A stretch of 42,475 nt of DNA from Candidatus Yanofskyibacteriota bacterium (lineage in GTDB: Bacteria; Patescibacteriota; Minisyncoccia; 2-02-FULL-40-12; GWA2-44-9), in contig JACOZW010000025.1 in NCBI GenBank assembly GCA_016181145.1, positions 1 to 42,475 on the forward strand, read 5' to 3'. A program made the translations under genes and the position numbers. The notes beneath the pieces are model-generated. The model searched no databases. It was given only the letters and a program-made list of their open reading frames with translations, and had not been told where the DNA came from. This document shows positions 24,750-40,665 of the stretch, piece after piece. Position 1 is the stretch's first letter; each line of letters starts with the position of its first letter.

Positions 24750-24778
24750 AGTATAAAATAATACTTAGAATGTGTAAA
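24750..24778 (-). promoter_or_regulatory. Predicted promoter of the adenosyltransferase gene, inside the repeat stem
   Basis: TTTACA (24773-24778), 17 nt, TATACT (24750-24755), on the minus strand. The -35 lies in the outer left stem of the dispersed hairpin element, and the ATG is 7 nt past the -10. Confidence 0.6.
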
Positions 24779-24933
24779 AGAAATCCATATCCTACTGCAA
24801 TTGCAGAATTTCGGCTATAAAATCGTCATATCTCATCTGAATAGTGCCTAACTATTCTTCCTCAATCTGCCGATTTTCTATCTCGAAATTCTGCAATTTC
24901 GTGACGAAAGAGACTTCTCTTACACATTCTTAG
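24764..24933. repeat. Dispersed hairpin element, copy 1
   Basis: The core 24785-24912 is over 90 percent identical to 40135-40261. It folds as: AATTGCAGAATTTCG pairing with CGAAATTCTGCAATT (15 bp), AAAATCG with CGATTTT, and the tip GAATAGT/ACTATTC with a 5-nt loop. The outer arms (24764-24785 and 24912-24933) pair over about 19 of 22 positions, but their sequence is unrelated to the outer arms of copy 2. It lies between the adenosyltransferase gene and a candidate sRNA. Confidence 0.85.
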
Positions 24934-24952
24934 AGATATCCACACATTAGTT

Positions 24953-24980
24953 TTGACTAATGCAAGGTGATTGCTATAAT
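24953..24980 (+). promoter_or_regulatory. Strong promoter of the candidate sRNA
   Basis: TTGACT (24953-24958), 16-nt spacer, extended -10 TGC-TATAAT (24975-24980) on the plus strand. Confidence 0.7.
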
Positions 24981-24986
24981 ACAGAT

Positions 24987-25062
24987 AGTTCGTTGTCGAG
25001 AGCCTCGGCTCTCAAACCGAACGCAAGTTCGGAAAAGGTCCTCCCCGGAGAGACCTTTTTCT
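24987..25062 (+). ncRNA. Candidate small RNA with C-rich segment
   Basis: About 76 nt between a strong promoter and a T-tract terminator, with no open frame and a convergent gene beyond it. Three stem-loops follow one another: GAGAGCC/GGCTCTC; CCGAAC-GCAA-GTTCGG (GNRA tetraloop); and the terminator AAAAGGTC/GACCTTTT, whose upper part holds GTCCTCCCC. The C-rich CCTCCCC is complementary to Shine-Dalgarno-type GGGGAGG, as in C-rich sRNAs of Gram-positive bacteria. I do not recognise it as SRP RNA, 6S or tmRNA. Confidence 0.6.
25033..25062 (+). terminator. Terminator of the candidate sRNA
   Basis: 8-bp stem 25033-25040 with 25052-25059, inner CTC/GAG, then TCTTTT. Confidence 0.75.
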
Positions 25063-25075
25063 TTTGCTAAATTTA

Positions 25076-40112: not shown

Positions 40113-40116
40113 ATTT

Positions 40117-40279
40117 AGTGGGTGTTTAGATATCCCATATTCTACTGCAATTGCAGAGTTTCGGCTATAAAATCGTCATATCTCGTCTGAATAGTATCGA
40201 CTATTCTTCCTCAATCTGCCGATTTTCTATCTCGAAATTCTGCAATTTAGTAACGAAAGAGGATATTCAAACACCCACT
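40117..40279. repeat. Dispersed hairpin element, copy 2
   Basis: Core 40135-40261, over 90 percent identical to copy 1 (24785-24912). One change turns an A-T pair into a G-T wobble, and the tip loop differs (ATCG), so structure is kept. Outer arms 40117-40135 and 40261-40279 (AGTGGGTGTTT..ATATCC) pair with each other but not with copy 1. The right arm overlaps the last codons and stop of the 132-aa gene; the left arm ends 5 nt before the Clp start. Confidence 0.85.
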
Positions 40280-40665
40280 TGAGAAACAATATTAACCCCC
40301 TTAATTATCAAGAATATCGCAATAGCCGGCCAAGCCAGCCAGGCGGCAAAAAGCAACAAAAAGAAAATCAGCAGAACAAACTCCCAGATAAGTCCGGCGA
40401 ATATGATCAATAAGCGGATAAGAGCCGCAATAATCCTGATATAGAAGTCGGCAATCTTGTCGAGAATTCTGTCGCTAAATGTTTTATTCTTACTGCCAAA
40501 ATCAGACGGATTCTGCCGATGCCACGGGGCAAACAATGTCTTAAAATGCTGAACAATTAAAAATCGATGCCAGTTGGCTTTTAAATAATTCCGCATTATT
40601 TGTAGGATCTCAAACGGAGCAACAGTATAGTGCCAATAAAAATATTCGAGAAATATAGTTACCAT
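40267..40665 (-). CDS. Hypothetical two-helix membrane protein next to Clp
   Basis: 132 aa, not a named family. A soluble N-terminal part with aromatic residues (FEYFYWHYTVAPFEILQIMRN, then LFAPWHRQNPSDF) precedes two adjacent hydrophobic helices (about 76-97 and 98-125). The pair with a membrane-anchored Clp upstream in the same direction suggests a shared membrane complex. I recall similar pairs in other Parcubacteria, but cannot check. Its stop codon lies in the outer arm of the dispersed hairpin element. Confidence 0.7.
   Translation of the reverse strand: MVTIFLEYFYWHYTVAPFEILQIMRNYLKANWHRFLIVQHFKTLFAPWHRQNPSDFGSKNKTFSDRILDKIADFYIRIIAALIRLLIIFAGLIWEFVLLIFFLLLFAAWLAWPAIAIFLIIKGVNIVSQVGV

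Follow-up and report, generated by a model that had tools for sequence, protein, structure and literature searches.

Two hairpins in a Yanofskyibacteriota contig are very probably copies of a MITE-like element whose exchangeable ends enclose a conserved folded core

Bacterial MITEs derived from insertion sequences include Correia/NEMIS, RUP and ERIC (PMC10969869, PMC2229807), and their transcripts form stable stem-loops (both PMC10969869 and PMC2229807). Two hairpins in the window, the 42,475-nucleotide stretch of a Candidatus Yanofskyibacteriota contig analysed here, share with these MITEs that they are short, non-coding, multi-copy and intergenic, that they have TIRs and target-site duplications (TSDs), and that they form a long stem-loop. 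Unlike bacterial MITEs, the element has a single conserved core that is combined with several exchangeable classes of TIR and with differing duplication lengths, and it has a phylum-wide spread and a strand-specific wobble signature. The evidence for a mobile element is strong, and each hairpin is very probably a complete, non-autonomous, MITE-like DNA transposon of ~162 bp, dispersed in Patescibacteria, with exchangeable TIRs around a folded core. In the open literature we found no description of such a MITE for Patescibacteria or the candidate phyla radiation. A sequence-only reading of the window had called the element undescribed, which holds for the literature searched but not for the kind, as MITEs are already known; what is new is a phylum-wide MITE-like family with exchangeable ends and a conserved folded core. 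Bacillus cereus carries mobile structured repeats of ~155 bp, the bcr1-type repeats. The hairpin element can be likened to them in kind, as a mobile structured repeat, and we know of no exchange of ends in the bcr1-type repeats.

Both hairpins are present where the sequence-only reading had placed them (Table 1). Exact boundaries are 24768-24929 for copy 1, which with its TTA/TTA flanks reads TTA-GAATG...CATTC-TTA, and 40118-40278 for copy 2, with TTA/TTG flanks; the two are 161-162 bp long with no gene within. Core identity is 0.92, in line with the more than 90% first reported, and arm identity is 0.47 over 32 arm columns. The arms nevertheless pair over ~16-18 bp in copy 1 and in copy 2, so the observation that they differ between copies and yet pair was correct. 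Against shuffled sequence, the minimum free energy of copy 1 has a z of -6.8 as DNA and -8.2 as RNA, and that of copy 2 a z of -8.4 as RNA. The sequence AGAATGTGTAAAAGAAGTCC from the copy 1 left arm, or a 1-mismatch form of it, is present in the congeners G003 and G002.

Table 1. Coordinates of the two hairpins and their parts in the window
Feature	Position	Strand	Sequence or remark
Copy 1, span in the sequence-only reading	24764-24933
Copy 2, span in the sequence-only reading	40117-40279
Copy 1 TSD, left	24765..24767	no strand	TTA
Copy 1 left TIR (outer arm)	24768..24785	+	GAATGTGTAAAAGAAATC, class I
Copy 1 core cassette	24790..24909	+	TCCTACTGCAATT...TTTCGTGACGAAA; nested stems, conserved internal loops
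Copy 1 right TIR (outer arm)	24912..24929	+
Copy 1 TSD, right	24930..24932	no strand	TTA
Copy 2 TSD, left	40115..40117	no strand	TTA
Copy 2 left TIR	40118..40136	+	GTGGGTGTTTAGATATCCC, divergent class I
Copy 2 core cassette	40140..40258	+	0.92 identity to copy 1
Copy 2 right TIR	40260..40278	+	contains final codons of - strand ORF 40267-40665
Copy 2 TSD, right	40279..40281	no strand	TTG, probably a decayed TTA

Next to copy 1, positions 24953-25067 hold a good sigma-70-like promoter (TTGACT-16-TATAAT, extended -10), followed by GC-rich hairpins and a T-run. This stretch is a candidate small RNA or leader, and a comparison with Rfam gave nothing above threshold.

The search of relatives with the core that the sequence-only reading had proposed brought up further copies in the window's own genome, in the class and in the phylum. 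A DNA search matched 17 of 143 genomes, the own genome included, a count that takes in short weak matches; two of the further copies in the own genome lie at contig ends (C51, C49), places at which repeats break assemblies. A covariance model of 166 positions, built from 25 copies, matches 104 of 384 class genomes and 54 of 380 phylum genomes, often with at least seven matches per genome. The element is thus found in about a quarter of the sampled class genomes, often in multiple copies, yet our searches found few transposases in these small candidate-phyla genomes. When GTDB genomes were scanned with a pattern, full-length elements were found only in Patescibacteria records (Parcubacteria, Sungiibacteriota, Portnoybacteria, Spechtbacteria and Doudnabacteria) and a few unnamed MAGs; the remaining matches were chance matches to the pattern. 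No Rfam family matches the element. Viral contigs gave no exact match to the core or the class III TIR pattern, and the class II TIR pattern occurs in seven of them, none containing the element.

From the outside in, the element begins with a variable arm of ~18-20 bp, which a conserved junction (TTCTRCTGCAAT / ATTTCGYRACGAAA) separates from a variable stem. A second junction (GGCTGCAA / TTTTCGCTCG) follows, and beyond it lie inner stems, again variable, and a tip hairpin. Some copies are shortened, with the inner part deleted (L058, G082:162305), and L161:845-921 has class III ends around an unrelated short interior. Split matches that could have represented an autonomous, full-length form carrying the core at its ends (L058, L063, L036) proved to be shortened or repeat-interrupted copies. 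A sub-family (L261-L276 and G082:C1:335577-335758) has CTCACCGC...AGCTTGTCGGCTG / CAGCTCGACATGAGATT in place of the first junction; its second junction is retained, as is an AGARCCTGTTCAAAATCTC-type end.

The arms belong to recurring types common to unrelated loci: class I is like GAGCCTGTCTGAAAAGTCC, class II like AGACCTGTTGCGTAATAA and class III like GGGTCTGTTGCCGAATGCC, and the same arm types (e.g., TAGACCTACTGCGNAAAGAT and AGAGCCTGTTGAAAAAGTC) are found at unrelated sites within and between genomes. Class II copies have 3-bp TSDs of the form ANT (20/40 versus 3.7 expected) and class III copies 5-bp TSDs (5/16 versus 0.44 expected), whereas the 3-bp TSDs of class I, of the form TNA and mostly TTA or TAA, are modestly above chance (11/50 versus 4.5 expected); expectations assume independent pairing of left and right flanks, and the excesses are somewhat optimistic, as boundary offsets were picked among 49 combinations per class. 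Duplication length varies between IS5 subgroups.

Autonomous elements with ends like those of the hairpin element occur in the same class, for TIR class I only. They comprise IS5-family elements (NCBIfam NF033580, two-ORF; L216 in G187, L215, L209, and L213 with an IS5_3 transposase) and the IS1182 element L237, with like TIR types (GAGCCTGTTCAAAATC, GAGACC...); those with element-like ends are of the IS5_3 and IS1182 types (L216, L213, L209, L237). L216 is 842 bp long and has two transposase ORFs, the TIR AGAGCCTGTTCAAAATCT / AGAGCCTGTTCAAAATCTTTT and the same TTA/TTA flanks as copy 1. These IS5 and IS1182 elements have transposase genes and no core, whereas the hairpin element has the core and no gene. 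Of the ends of the hairpin element, 10.4% match IS TIRs at no fewer than 15 of 20 bases, compared with 0% of shuffled ends and 0.09% of random 20-mers from the same loci. With PF01609, PF13340 and PF05598 we found no autonomous IS for TIR classes II and III, which in draft genomes is weak evidence. In the own genome (G000), also a draft in which absence is weak evidence, we found no transposase of these three families and hence no partner for the two copies.

The outer arms are TIRs. From the similarity of the ends and the target duplications, we infer that they are recognised in trans by DDE transposases of the IS5/IS1182 superfamily, which would place the element mainly in intergenic sites and create duplications of 3 or 5 bp. 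The element exists with several TIR classes, each probably fitted to a different transposase, which would explain why the arms differ between copies; as both ends must match the same enzyme, the arms would always pair. The cassette between the TIRs is conserved and consists of nested stems, whose asymmetric internal loops are conserved too.

We found 24 pairs of copies with a core identity of at least 0.84 and a TIR identity of at most 0.6. Identity rises at TTCT on the left and drops after GAAA on the right, symmetrically; the pairs were selected by these core and TIR identities themselves, but six columns that separate the left arm from the core, and that lie outside the selection, switch sharply too. 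Some pairs combine class II (3-bp TSD) with class III (5-bp TSD) in one genome (e.g., G243). The same cassette is carried inside different TIR classes, which suggests that ends and core evolve as separable modules. The most likely routes are recombination or conversion between co-resident copies via the core, or else a rapid turnover of TIRs driven by transposases. No hybrids with unlike arms were seen, the lowest arm pairing being 11/16. The family offers a natural experiment in which non-autonomous transposons appear to change transposase, TIR class and duplication length switching around a constant core.

The covariance model and covariation test of the outer arms, also proposed by the sequence-only reading, showed that all 16 outer pairs covary across the 25 diverse copies. 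In this set, 93.3% of cells are paired (74.3% when shuffled), 186 cells are double changes (52.6 when shuffled), and 32 of 39 pairs, including 16/16 arm pairs, are altered on both sides; among 106 copies, a mean of 15.1 of 16 outer pairs is formed. The suggestion that the differing arms reflect covariation in a structured RNA is partly supported, in that pairing is kept and covaries and the strand-specific wobbles favour a constraint on one folded strand, but the diversity of the arms is mainly a diversity of transposon ends.

In every case the score of the model strand far exceeds that of its complement, so the polarity of the core is fixed. Mismatches were counted in a palindrome alignment that scores all of them alike, once per genome and position. 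The arms have 81 A-C versus 24 G-T mismatches on the model strand, corresponding to 81 G-U versus 24 A-C on the complement. For mismatches flanked by Watson-Crick pairs, the A-C to G-T ratio on the model strand is 63:18 in the arms (P1; p 5e-7) and 39:11 in the second stem (P2; p 9e-5), the p-values being indicative because copies are not independent. Inner stems show the opposite (12 A-C versus 30 G-T on the model strand), mainly from one conserved pair. Both transition types add to the wobble excess, and as RNA the complement has the more stable fold in 126 of 131 copies (arms alone, 115 versus 15). Insertion orientation relative to genes is unbiased (+E+ 30, -E- 30), and since both orientations are equally frequent, the strand bias must originate in the element.

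This bias points either to selection that acts on one particular strand in its folded state or to damage to a strand exposed in fixed polarity. The complementary strand probably acts as a folded single strand, which is likelier RNA than DNA, and the arm mismatches that persist would be mainly those that form G-U wobbles on it. Tentatively, the core may be a selfish cassette of structured RNA or single-stranded DNA, read from the complement, that survives throughout the phylum by acquiring new transposon ends again and again. If so, the folded molecule and not the transposase would define the lineage. The element also makes it possible to test whether selection acts on a mobile hairpin as a folded single strand with a fixed polarity. 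A rather improbable account of the same mobile element is that palindrome template-switching or gene conversion between the arms maintains the pairing without selection, and that the wobble asymmetry stems from strand-specific deamination. Near-perfect arms (15.1/16 pairs) in a long quasi-palindrome fit this account, and the changes in excess, which on the complement are C>T and A>G, are likewise those expected from deamination of an exposed strand. However, the asymmetric internal loops are conserved throughout the phylum and have not been corrected to a perfect palindrome, and with insertion orientation random, the strand bias has to come from the element.

The strong covariation, the folding z of about -8, the strand-specific wobble excess and the greater stability of one strand would also be expected of a host structured RNA gene, cis- or trans-acting, whose outer stem is under ordinary RNA selection without mobility. 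We consider such a gene very unlikely, as copies lie at unrelated intergenic loci in both orientations, independent of the neighbouring genes, and have TSDs and IS-like TIRs, while an orthologous site is empty and Rfam gives no match to the element. A role in neighbouring mRNAs was dropped, as orientation relative to genes is random.

The empty site is that of copy 2. Its right arm had been noted to match the 3' end of the adjoining gene, and this small gene does extend a few codons into the TIR, with the stop of the - strand ORF (40267-40665) at 40267-40269, inside the right TIR. The proposed comparison of sites with and without the element succeeded here: in the congener G001, and likewise in G010, the small gene and an AAA+ ATPase gene meet at an orthologous junction that has neither the element nor the arm. 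A comparison site for copy 1 was sought and not found. On the gene strand, the trinucleotides flanking copy 2 are CAA and TAA, for which the simplest history would be insertion at the TAA stop and a later change of TAA to CAA. Elsewhere in relatives, the copy 2 arm has five 3-mismatch matches, no better than a reversed-pattern control and none beside a core. The other proposal of the sequence-only reading, that each site supplies its own arms through an insertion that copies local target sequence in inverted form, would suit the differing arms of the two copies and the overlap of the copy 2 right arm with the gene, but it can practically be discarded because identical arm types (TAGACCTACTGCGNAAAGAT, AGAGCCTGTTGAAAAAGTC) recur at unrelated loci, the arms match IS TIRs, the TSDs lie outside the arms, and the empty congener junction is armless.

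Several copies have conspicuous neighbours. Two copies occupy the same place in genomes of different families (L012:1478-1644 and L013:1478-1642), after GATATAGTCC and just before a tRNA-like 3' half, so that a tRNA intron is suspected; an insertion in a group I intron, suspected from GATATAGTCC, had no Rfam support at the gathering threshold. The copy at L017:1392-1551 (G016) lies directly upstream of the apparent 5' end of a 23S rRNA gene. Some copies have nested in them a second dispersed repeat (CCCCGTTAGAAGTC...GACTTCTAACGGGG; L063:6110-6318, L141:204-388, L005:80-100), apparently another mobile hairpin of Patescibacteria, which in the window's own genome also adjoins one copy. Several copies in genome G243 carry an insertion of a third repeat (GACGCGAGGCGATTTCG...CGCCTCGCGTC; L036:723-771, L036:3783-3860, L141) at the right-hand core junction.
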